DNA of 64,000 bases from Phycisphaerae bacterium. GTDB lineage: Bacteria > Planctomycetota > Phycisphaerae > SM23-33. The notes below the pieces were generated by a model. It was given only the letters and a program-made list of their open reading frames with translations, was not told the origin of the DNA and did no database searches. Positions 159-22,211 of the stretch are shown one piece after another. The stretch spans positions 1 through 64,000 of the forward strand of contig JASLNT010000014.1 in the NCBI GenBank assembly GCA_030745875.1, written 5' to 3'. Each line of letters begins with the position of its first letter. The first letter of the stretch is position 1. Made by a program: the position numbers and the translations under genes.

Positions 159-188
159 TTGACAGACCCCATGTTTTGTACATAATAT
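159..188 (+). promoter_or_regulatory. sigma70-like promoter for the candidate small RNA at 193-272
   Basis: TTGACA (159-164) followed by an AT-rich -10 (CATAAT 181-186 with 16-bp spacer, or TAATAT 183-188 with 18-bp spacer). Confidence 0.6.
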
Positions 189-192
189 ACCT

Positions 193-272
193 TACGTTGT
201 TCAGCTGGTCTCCCCCCGCCAGCTGAAACCCAAGCAGACTTGGCCTCCCCCTGCCAAGTCTGCTCTTTTTTT
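193..272 (+). ncRNA. candidate small RNA with two C-rich-loop hairpins (member 1)
   Basis: Hairpin TTCAGCTGG-[TCTCCCCCCG]-CCAGCTGAA (200-227) and hairpin AGCAGACTTGGC-[CTCCCCCT]-GCCAAGTCTGCT (233-264) followed by C and T7. Promoter lies directly upstream; no ORF. Confidence 0.7.
233..272 (+). terminator. intrinsic terminator (3' hairpin of candidate sRNA 1)
   Basis: Perfect 12-bp stem with 8-nt loop followed by TTTTTTT. Confidence 0.85.
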
Positions 273-328
273 ACCCCCTATGCACTTCAGTATCCTCGGT
301 GCAATTGCAGACTCCCCCCGGCGCCGAC

Positions 329-414: not shown

Positions 415-2070
415 CTATTTCTTCTTATTCCTCCGTCGGCGGACAGGAGCCTTCTTTTTCCGTTCGAGCATTTCGTGTGATATTTCAATAGCGCGTTTGC
501 GAGCGGCTGGGCCGTAGTCCCAGAATTCGTCGACGACCTTCTTCATCGCCGGAAATCTCTCGTCAGTGTCGCCGTATTTCTTGCGCAACGCGGCCAACTG
601 ACCCTTCAACTCGCTAACAATTTTGGCGTATTCGGGATTGTCGTACACATTGTTGACCTCTTTGGGATCCTTGCTCAGATCGTAAAGCTCCCATCCGGGC
701 GGTGTCTGGTTCCCGCCGTTCGACGAGCATCCGTAGTAGAAGATCAACTTGAACTTCTTGGTCCGAATACCGAAGTGAGACGGGTTGTCGTGGTGGGCCA
801 TGTGCATCCAATAGCGGTAGTACGCCGCCTGCTTCCAGCCGCCGGGCTCCTTACCGCTCTCGCAGATCGACTTGAAGCTCCCGCCCTGCATGCAATCGGG
901 CGTCTTGATTCCGGCGAAGTCAAGCATGGTCGGTCCGTAGTCCACATTCTCGACGATCGCATCTGACCGCGATCCGGCCTTGATTGTTTTGGGATATCGA
1001 ATCAGGAACGGCATGCGGTGCGACTCATCGTACATCCAGCGTTTGTCCATGTAGTCGTGCTCGCCGAGCATGAACCCCTGATCGCCGGTGTAGATAATCA
1101 CCGTGTTGTCCATCAGGCCTTCTTTCCTGAGGTATGCAAACAGGCGTTTGAGATTGTCGTCCACACCCTTTACGCATCGGAGATACTTCTTGAGGTACAC
1201 GTTGTACGCCAGGCGTTTGGCCTGTTCGTCGCTAAGGCTGGAATCCCTGGCCCACGACTTAGTGTAGTTGCGCCTCAGGTTCCGCCTGCCTATCGACGTA
1301 CCGATGTAGGGCAGGAGTTCATCGTTATGCCCGCGTGTGGCGATGGATCCGAATTTCGGTTGTTTCCAGAGGTTTTCCGGCTCGGGAATGTTCACATCCT
1401 CCAGATAGTTATCGTAGCGTTTGGCGTGGTCGAAGAAATCGTGCGGAGCCTTGTAGTGGTGCATCAGGAAGAACGGTTTGGACTTGTCGCGGATGTTCTT
1501 GAACCAGTTGAGCGTAATGTCGGTTATGCAGTCGGAGGAATGACCCTTCTTCTTGACTACGTTCTTGCCGAAGGCCTTGCCATCGGCTTTCTCCCGAAAG
1601 ATCGGGTCGTGGTATTTCCCCTGACCGGGAAGGACGCTGTAGTAATCAAAGTTCGGTTCTTTCTTGAGGTGCCATTTTCCCACCATGGCCGTGCAGTAAC
1701 CGGCCTTTCTCATTTCGATCGCCAGATACTGGTTCTCGGGAGCAATATTGCCCCCCAGATCGAGCACGCCGTTCTTGATCGAATACTGACCGGTGATGAT
1801 ACTCGCGCGGCTGGGCGTGCAAATCGAATTAGTACAGAAGGCGTTCTCAAACAGCATTCCCTCTTTCGCCAGCGTATCGATCACAGGCGTTGGATTCAGT
1901 TTCGCCAGTCGACTGCCGTAGGCTCCGATGGCCTGGTACGTGTGGTCGTCTGACATGATGAACAGTATGTTCGGTTTGTCGACCGCTTTGGCGGCGCGGG
2001 AGATGCGGGGCATTAATACTGCTGCGGCGCCGAGCCCGGCGGTTTTCAGGAAATCGCGGCGTGAATGCAT
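415..2070 (-). CDS. sulfatase (arylsulfatase family), Tat-exported
   Basis: Start chosen at MHSRRDFLKTAGLGAAAVLMPRISRA (Tat signal, upstream AGGAA). CTPSR active-site motif (CxPxR) and NILFIMSDDH metal-binding start. Confidence 0.9.
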   Translation of the reverse strand: MHSRRDFLKTAGLGAAAVLMPRISRAAKAVDKPNILFIMSDDHTYQAIGAYGSRLAKLNPTPVIDTLAKEGMLFENAFCTNSICTPSRASIITGQYSIKNGVLDLGGNIAPENQYLAIEMRKAGYCTAMVGKWHLKKEPNFDYYSVLPGQGKYHDPIFREKADGKAFGKNVVKKKGHSSDCITDITLNWFKNIRDKSKPFFLMHHYKAPHDFFDHAKRYDNYLEDVNIPEPENLWKQPKFGSIATRGHNDELLPYIGTSIGRRNLRRNYTKSWARDSSLSDEQAKRLAYNVYLKKYLRCVKGVDDNLKRLFAYLRKEGLMDNTVIIYTGDQGFMLGEHDYMDKRWMYDESHRMPFLIRYPKTIKAGSRSDAIVENVDYGPTMLDFAGIKTPDCMQGGSFKSICESGKEPGGWKQAAYYRYWMHMAHHDNPSHFGIRTKKFKLIFYYGCSSNGGNQTPPGWELYDLSKDPKEVNNVYDNPEYAKIVSELKGQLAALRKKYGDTDERFPAMKKVVDEFWDYGPAARKRAIEISHEMLERKKKAPVRRRRNKKK

Positions 2071-2158
2071 GTTTCTGGTTCCTGTGCGACGGTTATTGAT
2101 GTTGGCGGCGTTATGGTTAACGTTGCCCAAGGGCCCGCAATTGCAGCCCGACCAGAGT

Positions 2159-5718: not shown

Positions 5719-6024
5719 ATTCCATCTCCTAAGCATCGCCCGGTTCAGACACCATTGTTGTACGCACGCGACGAGGCGCCGTCAAACGGCTTTTTTGCCA
5801 CGGACACCACGGATGATAAGGGCGTCGGCGCCTGCCCTGATCTCAGCTGCGGCGCATTTCCCCGTAATTGGAACTTCTCTATAACTTCCTTCGGGTAGTC
5901 CATGCCCTTAAACGCTATCTCGCAACATCTCGCATGTGCTCATCCCGTAGAGAAAACACTCTGAAAAACAACCTGCCGCCCTGCGTGAGAAGTGGAGAGG
6001 GAGTTTACTGTCTCGTTCATGTCG

Positions 6025-13296: not shown

Positions 13297-13639
13297 TATG
13301 TGTGGGTGTTATAGCATGTTGGCAAAAAAAAAAGTGCCTCAGAACATCACCCTGAATAAAGAGTTACAGATAATCACAACATTTGGCCTGTTTTTAACTT
13401 GTCGCATACCAGATGTAGTACTAAGATCACTACTCGTTGGTCGCATCGGATCATCAGGACGTTTGGCGAAGCCTTGAAACGGATTGGCAAATCGCTGGTT
13501 TGATAGAACGGTTGATGTAGAAAGGGCGAACGTACCCTTTCGAGTCGGTGTTGGGACGATTGCGTAGGCGAGTTCATTTATTCGTAATAAGTATTCTCAA
13601 AATTTTAAACTGTTCAACTGTTTTGACGGGAGAGTGGCG

Positions 13640-16600
13640 ATGGCGCACCAGGACTCAACAAGCTCTTCGGACGGCTCAAAAAGCTCAGAAGCAACTACGC
13701 GAACCCAGGTCAGGGGCAAGGGGTTGAAGATTCCGCAAGTGTTCTCCACTCCCGGCGTAGATCCGTTTGACGATGTCAAATGGGAGAAGTCCTCGGCGCA
13801 CATTACTGACGATCAGGGCGCAACGATCTTCGAGCAGACGGATGTCGAAAAACCGGCCGACTGGAGCCAACTGGCGACCACCGTTGTCGTCAGCAAATAC
13901 TTCTATGGCGAGCACGGTTCACCCCAGCGTGAAAACTCGATTCGCAACATGGTCAATCGCGTCACGCGAACCATCACCGACCTCGGCCAGGCCGGAGGGA
14001 TCTTCGCTGATGATGAGGACGCCGAACGATTCTACAATGAACTGACGCACCTGTGTGTCAACCAGTACGGCGCGTTCAACTCGCCGGTATGGTTCAACGT
14101 CGGGCTGTTTCATCAATACGGCGTGGAAGGCTCCGAAGGCAACTGCCACTGGAACACGGAAACAGACCAGCCCGAGCGCACGATGAGGAGTTACGAATAC
14201 CCGCAGGCGTCCGCATGCTTTATCCAGTCCGTCGACGACACGATGGAGGATATCATGCGTCTGGCCCAGGACGAAGCGATGCTGTTCAAGTACGGTTCGG
14301 GCACGGGTACGGACCTTTCCACACTACGTTCAAGCCGCGAGAACCTTTCGGGCGGAGGCACGCCCTCCGGCCCGCTGAGCTTCATGCGAATATTCGATCA
14401 GATCGCCGCGGTCGTTCGATCCGGCGGCAAGACGCGCCGCGCCGCAAAGATGCAGTCGTTGCGATGCGACCATCCGGATATCATGGAGTTCATCTCGTGC
14501 AAAATGGTCGAGGAGCGAAAAGCCTGGGCTCTGATCGAACAGGGATACGACGGCTCGTTCACCGGTGAGGCGTACGCCTCGGTGATGTACCAGAACGCCA
14601 ACCTGTCGATCAGGGTCACAGACGAATTCATGGACGCCGCGTTGAACGGCGGGATGTGGTCGACACACGAGGTTACTACGGGCAAGAAGTCCGTCGAGTA
14701 TCCGGCGGCCGAACTGCTGGGCCTGATCGCAGAGGGCACGCACATCTGCGGAGATCCGGGCATCCAGTATCACACGACAATCAACAAGTGGCACACCTGC
14801 GCTGACGACGGAGAAATATGCGCCTCCAATCCGTGCAGCGAGTACATGTTCCTTAACGATTCGGCGTGCAACCTGGCCAGCCTGAACCTGATGAAATTCC
14901 GCCGCGAAGACGGAACGATGGACACCGACCGAATGGCCGCCGCGGCCAGGGTGTTCATCATAGCTCAGGAGATCCTCGTTGACAGCGCGAGTTATCCCGG
15001 CGATAGAATCTGCACCAACAGTCACAACTACCGCCCGCTGGGGCTGGGCTATGCGAATCTGGGCGCCCTGCTGATGTCGCTGGGGCTGCCCTACGACAGT
15101 GACGAGGGTCGCGCAACGGCTGGAGCCCTTACCGCAGTGTTAACCGGATCGGCCTACGCCGCAAGCGCCGAACTGGCCCAATGCCTCGGGCCATTCGCGA
15201 AGTTCGAGCATAACCGCAAATCGATGCTCAACGTCATAAAGATGCACCAGGCCGCCGTTGAGGACATCGATAGCAACTCCTGCCCGCCCGCTCTGCTGGA
15301 TGCGGCCAGGGCGTCGTGGACAAAGGCGATCGACGCTGGTGAGAAGTTCGGATACCGCAACGCACAGGTCTCCGTGCTGGCGCCCACAGGAACTATCGGT
15401 TTCATGATGGACTGCGACACCACCGGTATCGAACCGGATATCGCATTGGTCAAGTACAAGCAACTGGCCGGCGGCGGAATGTTCAAGATCATCAATCAGA
15501 CCGTATCACTGGCGTTGCAGCGGCTTGGATACAAAGACGAGATTATTGACGGGATACTGACGCATATTAACCAGCATGACACCATCGAAGGCGCGCCGGG
15601 TCTCAAGAATGAACATCTGCCCGTATTCGACTGCGCCTTTAAACCCGCAAACGGAAGTCGCTGCATCCACCACATGGGTCATATTCGGATGATGGGAGCG
15701 GCCCAGCCGTTCATCTCCGGAGCGATCTCCAAGACCGTGAACATACCCAACGAAGCGACCGTCGATGAAATCGAGGGCGTCTACGTCGACGCCTGGAAAC
15801 TGGGACTCAAGGCGGTGGCGATATACCGTGACGGATCGAAGCGAATCCAGCCGCTGAACGTTTCGAAAGATGTATCCAAGAGCAATTCCAAGGCCCTTCA
15901 CGCTGAAGTAACCGGCATCAGCCAGGAACAGCTCGAAGCCGCCACGCGTAAACCGCATCGTCGGCGTCTGCCCGCGACCCGCCCGTCGATCACGCACAAG
16001 TTCTCGGTCGCCAGGCATGAGGGCTATCTCAGTGTTGGGCTCTACGAAGACGGCACGCCTGGCGAGTTGTTCATCAGCATGTCAAAGGAAGGCTCCACCG
16101 TTGGCGGAATGATGGATACATTCGCAACGGCGTTGAGCCTGTGTCTGCAATACGGCGTACCGCTGGAAAGTCTCGTGAAGAAATTCTCCCATCAACGATT
16201 CGATCCCCACGGTATGACTGACAACCGCGATATTCCAATGGCCAAGAGCATCGTCGACTATATCTTCCGCTGGCTTGGCTTGCAGTTCCTCGGCGAGGAG
16301 TACCGCAGCAAACACCTGCCCAAACGCAACGCGCCGAAGAACGCCGGAACCGAAACAAACAACAAAGCGATAGCGCCCGAGGCTGTCAAGGATGACGCAC
16401 CCTCGGAACCTGGCCGCGTCGGCAAGGCCTTGGACAAGGAAGTCCCCAGGCCCGCCGACGCACTTATTGACGTAGACGGATTCACCCCAGTCGCAAGGTC
16501 TGATGGTGACGCGACCGACGGCGCCTCAACCAGCACGGTCGTCAAGAAATCACTCAGATTGTCGGTGGGTTCGTCGCCGCAACGCGCGGCGGCGGCCAGT

Positions 16601-16732
16601 GAGCGAATAGACCGACAGTTCGAGCACTTCCAGGAAGATGCTCCAGCATGTGATGTCTGCGGATCGCTCACGGTTCGAAACGGGAATTGTTATAAATGCT
16701 TCAACTGCGGATCATCGCTGGGCTGCAGTTGA
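13640..16732 (+). CDS. nrdJ: adenosylcobalamin-dependent (class II) ribonucleoside-diphosphate reductase
   Basis: Class II RNR signatures: NSPVWFNVGL, ASACFIQSVDDTM, PCSEYMFLNDSACNLASLNL, APTGTIGFMMDCDTTGIEPD; C-terminal Cys cluster CDVCGSLTVRNGNCYKCFNCGSSLGCS. GTG at 13634 is an alternative start. Confidence 0.95.
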   Translation: MAHQDSTSSSDGSKSSEATTRTQVRGKGLKIPQVFSTPGVDPFDDVKWEKSSAHITDDQGATIFEQTDVEKPADWSQLATTVVVSKYFYGEHGSPQRENSIRNMVNRVTRTITDLGQAGGIFADDEDAERFYNELTHLCVNQYGAFNSPVWFNVGLFHQYGVEGSEGNCHWNTETDQPERTMRSYEYPQASACFIQSVDDTMEDIMRLAQDEAMLFKYGSGTGTDLSTLRSSRENLSGGGTPSGPLSFMRIFDQIAAVVRSGGKTRRAAKMQSLRCDHPDIMEFISCKMVEERKAWALIEQGYDGSFTGEAYASVMYQNANLSIRVTDEFMDAALNGGMWSTHEVTTGKKSVEYPAAELLGLIAEGTHICGDPGIQYHTTINKWHTCADDGEICASNPCSEYMFLNDSACNLASLNLMKFRREDGTMDTDRMAAAARVFIIAQEILVDSASYPGDRICTNSHNYRPLGLGYANLGALLMSLGLPYDSDEGRATAGALTAVLTGSAYAASAELAQCLGPFAKFEHNRKSMLNVIKMHQAAVEDIDSNSCPPALLDAARASWTKAIDAGEKFGYRNAQVSVLAPTGTIGFMMDCDTTGIEPDIALVKYKQLAGGGMFKIINQTVSLALQRLGYKDEIIDGILTHINQHDTIEGAPGLKNEHLPVFDCAFKPANGSRCIHHMGHIRMMGAAQPFISGAISKTVNIPNEATVDEIEGVYVDAWKLGLKAVAIYRDGSKRIQPLNVSKDVSKSNSKALHAEVTGISQEQLEAATRKPHRRRLPATRPSITHKFSVARHEGYLSVGLYEDGTPGELFISMSKEGSTVGGMMDTFATALSLCLQYGVPLESLVKKFSHQRFDPHGMTDNRDIPMAKSIVDYIFRWLGLQFLGEEYRSKHLPKRNAPKNAGTETNNKAIAPEAVKDDAPSEPGRVGKALDKEVPRPADALIDVDGFTPVARSDGDATDGASTSTVVKKSLRLSVGSSPQRAAAASERIDRQFEHFQEDAPACDVCGSLTVRNGNCYKCFNCGSSLGCS

Positions 16733-16971
16733 ACATCCCGCGTGGAGACGGGCGTCTGGCCGTCTCCGAGGTAATGGTGCGGCGCCCACGGAAGGGCGCC
16801 GGCTGAATGGCACGGATTGAGGCGCTGGCCGGCAAACCCGGTCGGCGCCTCAAAGAGCCATCCGATGATGTTGACGCCGGATCGCCTGGCGACAGGCGGC
16901 GATAATGTTCGGTGTGTACGTTCGTCGCGAAAGAGAACAATCGAAAAAATATCAGAAAAATCGGTTAACGC

Positions 16972-16999
16972 TTGCAGGCTGCAACCGCCGATTTATAAT
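16972..16999 (+). promoter_or_regulatory. sigma70-like promoter for candidate small RNA 2
   Basis: TTGCAG (16972-16977), 16-bp spacer, TATAAT (16994-16999). Confidence 0.6.
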
Positions 17000-17005
17000 G
17001 ACGTT

Positions 17006-17181
17006 TGGGTTATTTCAGGTCATAGTCTGTCAGGGTTCAGGAAAAACAGCCCAAACAGATCGACATGATATTGGTTGTCCGCTGCACCCCATTACATGTA
17101 GGTCTCCCTCCACCTGCATATTAGGGATGCGGCTTTGGGCGACGTTTAGGTCTCCCTCCGCCTAGGCGTCGCCATTTTTTT
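17006..17181 (+). ncRNA. candidate small RNA with C-rich-loop hairpins (member 2)
   Basis: ATGTAGGT-[CTCCCTCC]-ACCTGCAT (17096-17119) and GGCGACGTTTAGG-[TCTCCCTCCG]-CCTAGGCGTCGCC (17138-17173) followed by A and T7. Consensus promoter upstream; no convincing ORF. Confidence 0.7.
17138..17181 (+). terminator. intrinsic terminator (3' hairpin of candidate sRNA 2)
   Basis: 13-bp stem with 10-nt loop followed by ATTTTTTT. Confidence 0.85.
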
Positions 17182-17224
17182 GCGCTCATTCGACAGCCGT
17201 TGAGTTAGCAACCGCCACCTGGCA

Positions 17225-18700
17225 TTAGTTGCTGTACGGAACCGTTCCACGCGAGTTGACCTTGTAGCCCCACTTGGCGATGTACTTCCTCCCGCCCAAA
17301 AACTCGTCACCGGTGCTCTTGAGCTTTTTCATAAGCAGCGCATCGAGCCGCTTCTGCAGATCGGCGGACTCAGCTTCGCCCGTGAGATTCTTCAATTGGT
17401 GCGGATCGGCTTGGTTGTCGTACAGCAGCCATGGACCGTTGAGGTCGCGAACGTACGTGTAGCGTCGCGTTCGAACGCCGCGGAATTCTCGTCCCTGACC
17501 CCTGTACCATTCCCCAAACGGCGAGGGACACGTAATCAACGCGGCATCATTTGCAGCCTCGGTCCGCCCGGCCAACACAGCGGAGAAATCAACGCCCTCG
17601 ACTGTCTTGGGGATCGCTATTCCGCTCAAGCCCAGCAATGTGGGCATGATGTCGGGGGTGTTGATCGGCATATCGATGGTTCTGGGCTTACGGCCCAGAC
17701 CGGCGGGATACCGAACCAGAAAAGGAACCATGATCGATTCGTCCCAGGGCTTCTGCTTTCTGCTCATGCCCTGAGAACCCAGCATGTCGCCATGATCCGA
17801 AGTGAAGACGAATATCGTGTTGTCGGCGATTCCCGCCTGGTCGATAGTCGCCAGCAGATCGCCCACGCAGGCGTCCAGCGCCGAAATGTGAGCGTAGTAG
17901 CCCGCCAAATCCCTGCGAGCCCCGCCCTGAGCCCTGGCGGGAACATTGTCGCGAAGCTTGATCTTCTTGCTGTCGTACAGCTTGCGATACTTGCTCGGAG
18001 CGGTCTGATACGGATTGTGCGGCGGGCCCAGAGACAGCACGATAATGAACGGTTTGGCGCCCGTGGCATGCTTGCGAATGTAGCCCCGTGCGTCGTCGGT
18101 CTGCGACCTGGCGTCGTATCCGGCCCAGGTTAGCTTGGTCTTGCTGTTTGCGGCGTAGTAGAAGGAACGGTTGTAGTTGTGCGTGCACTCCAGAACCTTC
18201 CAGTAGTCAAATCCGTGGCGACGCTCCGGGGGAATGTATGACGCCCGCCCGTGACCGTCGAGATGCCATTTCCCAATATAGGCGGTGTCGTAACCGGCCT
18301 GGGCGTAGGCCTGAGCAAGCGTGACGCCTTTGGGCGACAGGCACAGATCGTTAAGGAACACCCCGTGGGTAAGCGGATACTGCCCGGTGAGCAGGCTCGC
18401 CCGATACGGACAGCACACCGGACAACCGGAAACGGCGTTGCTTAGATTAACGCTCTGGGTCGCCAGTTTGTCCAGATTCGGCGTCAGAGCATTCGGATCG
18501 CCGCCGTACCCGGTGGCCTGACGACGCCACTGGTCAGTCAGGACGAACACGACATTGGGACCTTTCGCTTTCCTGACGCTGGTCTGCGCCGCATGGACCG
18601 ACCCCTGTATGAACGCAGCGCCGACGACAACGCCTGCGGCCCTTACGAACTCACGCCTGCTCAAGCTACTTGTATTTCTAGGCACGGTATATCTCTCCAA
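17225..18700 (-). CDS. sulfatase, Tat-exported
   Basis: SRREFVRAAGVVVGAAFIQG Tat-like signal; CCPYR (CxPxR) motif; NVVFVLTDQWRRQATGY; FTSDHGDMLGSQG. Confidence 0.9.
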   Translation of the reverse strand: MERYTVPRNTSSLSRREFVRAAGVVVGAAFIQGSVHAAQTSVRKAKGPNVVFVLTDQWRRQATGYGGDPNALTPNLDKLATQSVNLSNAVSGCPVCCPYRASLLTGQYPLTHGVFLNDLCLSPKGVTLAQAYAQAGYDTAYIGKWHLDGHGRASYIPPERRHGFDYWKVLECTHNYNRSFYYAANSKTKLTWAGYDARSQTDDARGYIRKHATGAKPFIIVLSLGPPHNPYQTAPSKYRKLYDSKKIKLRDNVPARAQGGARRDLAGYYAHISALDACVGDLLATIDQAGIADNTIFVFTSDHGDMLGSQGMSRKQKPWDESIMVPFLVRYPAGLGRKPRTIDMPINTPDIMPTLLGLSGIAIPKTVEGVDFSAVLAGRTEAANDAALITCPSPFGEWYRGQGREFRGVRTRRYTYVRDLNGPWLLYDNQADPHQLKNLTGEAESADLQKRLDALLMKKLKSTGDEFLGGRKYIAKWGYKVNSRGTVPYSN

Positions 18701-20968: not shown

Positions 20969-22211
20969 CCGCATCAGAGGAAGATCCTTCGTCCGCGAAA
21001 CGCGGTGAAATCAGTCTCAACGTTATCGCTCCGATCGCCCCAGCCAACCACACACCCCCTCCGACCGCATGCCACAGCAATCTGACCTGGGACGAATCGG
21101 CCCAGGCGCTCGCGGCAAAAATGACTATCCCGACAGTTGAACTCCACGCCAATATCAGCGCCCCGGTCCTCCACCTTACGACAACCGCCCCGCAAGTCAT
21201 GGCGTATCTTGCAATTGCAACCATCATCACCAGGACAACGACCTGCAGCGGATAGCCCGCCAGGTAGTCGCTCCTGAGACTCAGCACTTCCTGGCGCCAT
21301 CCGGTAACCACCGCCAACGCCACCGGAAGCAAAACGCCCACAAGCAGCGTTCGACCGGGCCCGGCGAGGTACAGACCACCGGCAAGTAAGGCCGCGGCGG
21401 GAATCTCCAGATCACCCACAGGCCGCGCCAAAACAGGCGCCGCAGAGTGCTCAATCAACCACAACACCCCGCCGGAAGCCGAAAGGGCTCCCGCCGCCGT
21501 CAGCGACGCGAGAAGTCGCAAGCGTTCGGAGAAACCGCCCTTGCAGTGACGTTCGATCATCTCCCCATTGAGAATCACCAGCATTGTAACTGAATAGAGT
21601 ATGAACACCGACATTGCAGCGGCCGATTGAAGCGTAACTTCCGGAAGGCCCAGGTAGTCGGCGACCGACTGATAACCTCCAATCAACCCGTCCAGGGCTC
21701 CGTTGCCCAGCACTATCTCGCCAGGGGGAGCGAGCCACTTGAGCCCGAAGATCAATCCGACCACCATAAGGGCCGAAACTATCGGGCAGGGCAAGCGCAG
21801 CCCGGCCACGAGCACACCATTGATCAATCCGCAGAGGGCTCCGACCGCTATACCGGCGGAAATTGAAGCCGTCGCTCCACATCCCTCTCCGAGCAACATC
21901 GCGCTGACCACGCCTCCCAGGCCCGCGACCGCCCAGACACTCAGGTCCACCGCCCCGCAACGCAACGCCAGCATGAATCCCATCGCCGGAAGTAACCAGT
22001 ACGACAGCAGAAAACGAGAGAAACGTTCGATTACGTCACCGAAGTCGGACAGTTCCCCGCTACCGACGCTCGACGCCAGATGTCCGTCAATCCACCATAC
22101 CGGAAGCATCGCAATGAGCAGCCCCCCCAGCAGCATCCATACGAGCCAATCTCGCAGATGCGCCAAGGGCGTATCAGCGCGTGGGCGGAGTTTATCTTCC
22201 AGGGACATCAT
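20937..22211 (-). CDS. RbsC/BPD_transp_2-like ABC transporter permease
   Basis: About 8-10 hydrophobic segments; ALRCGAVDLSVWAVAGLGGVVSA and GALCGLINGVLVAGLRLPCPIVSALMVVGLIFGLKW resemble sugar permeases. Confidence 0.7.
   Translation of the reverse strand: MMSLEDKLRPRADTPLAHLRDWLVWMLLGGLLIAMLPVWWIDGHLASSVGSGELSDFGDVIERFSRFLLSYWLLPAMGFMLALRCGAVDLSVWAVAGLGGVVSAMLLGEGCGATASISAGIAVGALCGLINGVLVAGLRLPCPIVSALMVVGLIFGLKWLAPPGEIVLGNGALDGLIGGYQSVADYLGLPEVTLQSAAAMSVFILYSVTMLVILNGEMIERHCKGGFSERLRLLASLTAAGALSASGGVLWLIEHSAAPVLARPVGDLEIPAAALLAGGLYLAGPGRTLLVGVLLPVALAVVTGWRQEVLSLRSDYLAGYPLQVVVLVMMVAIARYAMTCGAVVVRWRTGALILAWSSTVGIVIFAASAWADSSQVRLLWHAVGGGVWLAGAIGAITLRLISPRFADEGSSSDAVTCSHRLPES

Follow-up and report, generated by a model that had tools for sequence, protein, structure and literature searches.

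A conserved, nrdJ-linked RNA of one Phycisphaerae lineage with two identical C-rich loops, and its proposed role as an anti-Shine-Dalgarno sRNA

Downstream of nrdJ in the window analyzed here, a 64,000-nucleotide stretch of DNA from a Phycisphaerae bacterium, lie two hairpins that present the same C-rich loop, and the question they raise is whether they form an RNA gene of their own and, if so, what that RNA would act upon. A sequence-only reading of the window had proposed at this locus a promoter, two hairpins and a run of seven Ts, all of which we found in place, and had treated it as the second member of a multi-copy family of small RNAs (sRNAs) whose first member lies near the start of the window. 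Taken alone, the nonamer TCTCCCYCC that the two loci share is unremarkable in 64 kb, being seen three times against 1.3 expected (the third at 209–217, in member 1), so wider evidence was needed.

The plus-strand region 17081–17181 reads as a compact RNA in which an outer stem bears hairpin 1 and is followed by a terminator hairpin ending in U7. The outer stem (17081–17133, with 17081–17089 facing 17124–17133 in 8 pairs) encloses hairpin 1 (17096–17119), whose C-rich loop CTCCCTCC, or CUCCCUCC in RNA letters, occupies 17104–17111; the terminator hairpin (17138–17173) carries the identical loop at 17152–17159 and leads to the T7 tract at 17175–17181, an intrinsic terminator that a terminator scan also reports together with its hairpin. 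Both loops are framed as GG-U-CUCCCUCC-R-CC, the frame of the family being GG-UCUCCCUCC-R-CC. Our covariance model R1 matches 17073–17185 with 109 bits (E 2e-25 in the window's own genome), a score that is not independent, as the window sequence is one of the 36 in the model; the conserved core can also be delimited as 17073–17181. The promoter region (16951–16999, plus strand) consists of the block ATCAGAAAAATCGGTTAACGCTTGCAG at 16951–16977, which includes a −35-like TTGCAG (16972–16977), a 16-nt spacer and a −10 TATAAT (16994–16999), whose distance predicts a start at about 17006 and a full transcript, in the window's genus, of 17006–17181. Between promoter and core, 17018–17070 may tentatively be assigned to a genus-specific 5′ hairpin, suggested by the predicted fold and by one or more compensatory changes (in locus L135 of a sister species, GTCTGT/ACAGAT has become GTCTAT/ATAGAC). 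Compared with shuffled sequences, folding gives z-scores of −4.6 for 17004–17181, −4.5 for hairpin 1 and −6.1 for the terminator. The outer stem and the 5′ hairpin, like the strong orthology and synteny described below, go beyond the sequence-only reading. A small protein as the product was rejected, with overlapping ORFs of 83–86 amino acids having no Pfam match and ORFs across the RNA in other genomes forming no common cluster. Directly downstream, a sulfatase gene (17225–18700, minus strand) is convergent with the locus.

Evidence that these structures are maintained comes from an alignment of 36 homologues that spans the whole core, from the outer stem with hairpin 1 through the terminator hairpin. 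Standard pairs fill 96.4% of its cells (96.9% in the outer stem, 97.6% in hairpin 1), and 16 of the 29 base pairs show compensatory changes on both sides, including four in the outer stem, four in hairpin 1 and 8 of the 13 in the terminator; none of 500 shuffles reached the observed values, and pairing fell to 35–50% in a control with sliding partners. The loops are nearly invariant: a large majority of members keep UCUCCCUCC, including most of those found by the model and not by the exact pattern, although rare variants such as UCCCCCUCC occur; R1, having been trained on conserved loops, favors members that have them while leaving stems free to vary. The strand is set as plus by G-U pairs and the U-tract. 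Member 2 is a genuine, conserved RNA whose stems covary around fixed loops, and, read from the alignment and from the members recovered by the model, this pattern is the signature of loop selection with compensated stem drift, in agreement with the proposal that conserved loops on unrelated stems are selected.

R1 matched 33 of 35 genomes in the window's family and all three from a sister family belonging to that order, with one to five matches per genome in most; elsewhere in the class, 359 genomes gave no match, and in a draw of 392 genomes from the phylum the window's own genome was the sole match, these large searches using stricter filters that may miss weak members. The loop-plus-T-tract pattern was present in 13 of the 21 genomes searched, these 13 spanning the window's own genus, family and order, with no matches in the five other families of the class covered by the same search. 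An independent pattern scan of named genomes, requiring two loops at a distance of 18–48 nt, found 57 stretches. By record title the majority are Phycisphaerae, Phycisphaerales, Planctomycetales or Planctomycetota MAGs; on inspection the architecture was absent from the remaining matches (Streptomyces, Prevotella and others). Two matches in viral contigs look like repeats. No Rfam family matched the RNA at gathering or relaxed thresholds. The RNA is restricted to a single order-level lineage within the class Phycisphaerae (Planctomycetota); the named genomes encountered from this lineage are metagenome-assembled, the window's own being 89% complete with 6% contamination.

Several loci per genome were found, as the prediction of a multi-copy family had anticipated. 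In the window's own genome, the 14-mer frame GGNCTCCCNCNNCC gave 25 matches against 11 in the reversed control, among them a group of genuine hairpins, several of which lead into T-tracts. A search of the kind proposed, for the loop with a T-tract, gave 6 matches against 0 in the reversed control, a yield far above chance that shows further loci to exist. Besides member 2, this genome has a member on contig 10 (41539–41657, R1 93 bits), a two-hairpin copy on the minus strand of contig 109 (about 21300–21410, R1 39 bits, loops CUCCCCCC and UCUCCCCCC), a single-hairpin terminator member (contig 67) and copies that are degenerate (contigs 12, 70 and 90). The contig 109 copy also has a T6 tract and a promoter-like TTGACA...TATAT stretch; the contig 70 and 90 copies have near-identical hairpins with a C-rich loop and no T-tract, and an IS200-like transposase lies near the former. 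Member 1 (183–275, plus strand; R1 35.3 bits, E 6e-7) has two hairpins with loops UCUCCCCCC and CCUCCCCCU and is kept in two sister species (loci L075 and L116). The CCUCC that was said to lie in the loops is absent from the first of these. One and the same architecture had been ascribed to both loci, a view that needs refining, for they are different subtypes. From the sequences compared, the subtype of member 2, with its outer stem and its link to nrdJ, is widespread, whereas that of member 1 is minimal, consisting of two hairpins, and has so far been seen only in the window's genus. One genome of the lineage (G011) has a tandem array of approximately 195-bp units, in which loop hairpins lie at 5769, 6004, 6199 and 6394 of C140:5500–6700, the last three near-identical and 195 bp apart, each unit comprising a hairpin with a CCUCC loop and one with a UCUCCCUCC loop followed by a T-tract. 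No common function emerged among the paralogue neighbors compared; an ORF downstream of member 1 (about 415–2130, minus strand) falls in the same protein cluster as the sulfatase 3′ of member 2.

The conserved upstream neighbor of the RNA, and its proposed target, is nrdJ (13640–16732, plus strand), which encodes a class II (B12-dependent) ribonucleotide reductase (Pfam Ribonuc_red_lgC at 4.6e-132, Ribonuc_red_2_N, TSCPD). The RNA lies 3′ of nrdJ on the same strand and the same contig in 29 genomes, a count of pairs on one contig that omits a few further pairs split by contig ends, and the gap is approximately 110–500 bp in nearly all. A single genome (G008) is an exception to this linkage, and two genomes (G005, 95% complete, and G197, 75% complete) have neither nrdJ nor the RNA. 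The Shine-Dalgarno sequence of nrdJ, GGGAGA at 13628–13633, six bases before the ATG at 13640, is the complement of the loop bases UCUCCC and the proposed pairing site. Shine-Dalgarno sequences are in use in the window's own genome, where AGGAG is 12-fold and GGAGA 8-fold enriched, and GGGAG can itself serve as one through a G-U pair. Across the family, nrdJ has GGGAG(A) in 13 of 24 genera and AGGAG in 3 (by genome, 16 and 3 of 30 resolved starts), whereas recA in the same family has AGGAG in 16 of 20 genera and GGGAG in 3 (by genome, 24 of 28 and 2–3). The ratio of GGGAG to AGGAG thus differs between nrdJ (13:3) and recA (3:16 genera) with a Fisher p of 1.5e-4 per genus and 1.2e-6 over all genomes, and GGGAG against everything else with 0.011 per genus and 7e-4 over all genomes; phylogeny is handled in these statistics by taking one value per genus only, and a rule decided the choice of start codon. 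Within the same loci, GGGAG precedes 11 of 24 nrdJ genes vs 11 of 238 other genes (p 1.3e-7), and close nrdJ homologues in four outgroups of the class that lack the RNA have AAGGAG (two) or CGGAGG (two) and none GGGAG. The complementarity of the loop to the nrdJ Shine-Dalgarno sequence is conserved, with moderate strength, and this match across genera supports the anti-Shine-Dalgarno role that had been read into the loops.

We favor, at a probability of about 0.6, the reading that the locus encodes an independently transcribed, intrinsically terminated anti-Shine-Dalgarno sRNA presenting two identical UCUCCCUCC loops, with nrdJ as its most likely ancestral target. Repression of nrdJ translation is a probable function of the sRNA, alongside effects on other targets. 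Each loop would pair, loop to single strand, with a Shine-Dalgarno sequence of the GGGAGA type, sequestering the nrdJ ribosome-binding site and blocking 30S binding, so that ribonucleotide reductase synthesis would be held under negative feedback or capped. The circuit would reach further through the paralogous copies and through other mRNAs whose sites are GGGAG or GGAGA, and the RNA would act without Hfq.

The strongest competitor, which we consider unlikely though worth keeping in view, accepts an anti-Shine-Dalgarno sRNA and assigns it other mRNAs as its real targets, leaving nrdJ a mere neighbor whose GGGAG is coincidental or inherited. C-rich loops are able to pair with many Shine-Dalgarno sequences, and by duplex energy with the loop nrdJ ranks only 27th of 874 leaders in the window's own genome, several of which score better. 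The match of loop to nrdJ is also short (5–7 bp), and together with this rank it makes it very likely that the sRNA has other targets; two genera that keep the RNA but whose nrdJ lacks GGAG (g9 and g26) point the same way. Against nrdJ being incidental stands the recurrence of the GGGAG shift in 13 of 24 genera, which is seen neither in recA nor in the outgroups without the RNA. We looked for a broad excess of loop complementarity among own-genome leaders and discarded the idea, since the loop did no better than permuted CU-rich loops and hence gives no broad specificity signal. An individual candidate, a response-regulator-like gene (contig 31:91900–92731, minus strand) in which GGAGGGAGACC, located 1 nt from the ATG, is perfectly complementary to loop and stem over 11 nt, would fit the other-targets view; it was rejected as a target because a sister species does not conserve this site, which is altered in a paralogue as well.

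Protein-binding decoys, too, typically repeat one loop on stems that vary, and the C-rich loops might form a sponge in the manner of CsrB or RsmZ that captures a protein with affinity for C-rich RNA, an alternative we regard as improbable. The gene content of these bacteria lends it some weight: none of 31 genomes drawn from the lineage and class yielded Hfq, with five control genomes positive, and CsrA is present in 30 of the 31. This is an unusual background for a base-pairing sRNA, and a description as an Hfq-dependent sRNA, which presumes that Hfq is encoded, does not fit it. CsrA, however, binds GGA, and the loops of the transcribed strand (CUCCCUCC) contain none, so the RNA does not qualify as a CsrB-type sponge for CsrA. 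A sponge on the minus strand was rejected as well: only there do the loops have GGA, that strand lacks a terminator, and the G-U pairs and U-tract fix the plus strand. Protein binding would, in addition, leave the match to the nrdJ Shine-Dalgarno sequence unexplained.

Given its same-strand position shortly 3′ of nrdJ in nearly all genomes, the RNA could instead be the 3′ end of the nrdJ transcript, as a terminator structure or an sRNA processed from the 3′ UTR, and not a separate gene. We find this very unlikely in view of the promoter directly upstream. Compared across three congeneric species, the sequence separating nrdJ from the RNA has diverged, flanking spacer included, but ATCAGAAAAATCGGTTAACGCTTGCAG (16951–16977) and TATAAT are identical. 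The −35 TTGCAG agrees with the consensus at 3 of 6 positions and is rejected by a promoter scanner, though it lies inside this identical block, and in other genera an exact TATAAT stands 10–40 nt 5′ of the RNA in about one third of loci, often with a −35 of the TTGxxx type. Such conservation of a promoter of its own indicates that the locus is not only nrdJ read-through, although read-through followed by processing may still occur, and supports the predicted start near 17006; with the intrinsic terminator, it gives the intergenic region both signals expected of an sRNA gene. Paralogues of the same architecture exist away from nrdJ, and termination does not require two structured loops. The A-rich block ATCAGAAAAATCGGTTAAC (16951–16969) 5′ of the −35 is perfectly conserved, and related TCGGYTAAAG-like strings occur 5′ of the RNA in other genera; these may be an operator. 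Finally, the view that the hairpins arose by chance, or belong to an ordinary terminator whose loop happens to be C-rich, has next to no standing: the nonamer by itself is no rarity in the window, but covariation refutes the idea, and the phylogenetic restriction and the synteny speak against it.

Returning to the favored reading of an anti-Shine-Dalgarno sRNA, a bolder version of it, for which we would put the odds somewhat below even, holds that the sRNA gene and the Shine-Dalgarno sequence of its neighbor nrdJ co-evolved into a dedicated, Hfq-independent feedback loop specific to Planctomycetota, later duplicated into a small anti-Shine-Dalgarno family and, in one species, a tandem array. 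The literature and Rfam as searched contain no described base-pairing sRNA for Planctomycetota, and a search of papers open without subscription found none on sRNAs of this lineage; the RNA is previously undescribed. A compact conserved sRNA with a target as concrete as the nrdJ ribosome-binding site would open post-transcriptional control in Planctomycetota to study and add an RNA-level control point for DNA precursor synthesis.

Among known systems, the closest in design are the alpha-r14/cuckoo/CcsR RNAs of Alphaproteobacteria (NfeR1, CcsR1–4; RF02791). Alpha-r14 RNAs have three hairpins with identical ultraconserved anti-Shine-Dalgarno loops CCUCCUCCC on highly variable stems (PMC10746234), and the likeness to the RNA described here, multi-copy with identical anti-Shine-Dalgarno loops on unrelated stems, is one of mechanism only. 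In contrast, our RNA has UCUCCCUCC loops and not the CCUCCUCCC motif, two hairpins plus an outer stem, a different phylum, no Hfq found and a link to nrdJ; it scores 14.2 bits with the Rfam CcsR1 model against a threshold of 65.3, and no Rfam match to the alpha-r14 family appeared up to an E-value of 5. LhrC1–5 of Listeria monocytogenes are likewise multi-copy; they block a Shine-Dalgarno sequence by means of redundant CU-rich (UCCC) sites, located in a stem-loop and in the loop of the terminator, Hfq being dispensable (PMC4132741). The C-rich sites in hairpin and terminator loop are shared with our RNA, to which we found no sequence homology; LhrC copies, however, are near-identical and stress-induced, whereas here the stems diverge, a third single-stranded site is absent and nrdJ is adjacent. 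In RsaE, FsrA and other UCCC-motif sRNAs of Firmicutes, an accessible C-rich motif pairs with Shine-Dalgarno regions (work cited in PMC4132741), and these are unrelated to our RNA in sequence, structure and lineage. OppZ and CarZ of Vibrio cholerae are autoregulatory 3′-UTR sRNAs that repress their own upstream gene after RNase E cuts them from the mRNA, using Hfq (PMC7398697); our RNA is similarly encoded downstream of the gene whose translation it is proposed to repress, but has its own promoter in a lineage without detectable Hfq. By analogy, the best explanation is that the family would work like alpha-r14/CcsR and LhrC while being unrelated to them. It would then be an independent case of repeated anti-Shine-Dalgarno loops on free stems, beside the alphaproteobacterial and Listeria examples, and the appearance of such loops in independent lineages suggests a recurrent design.
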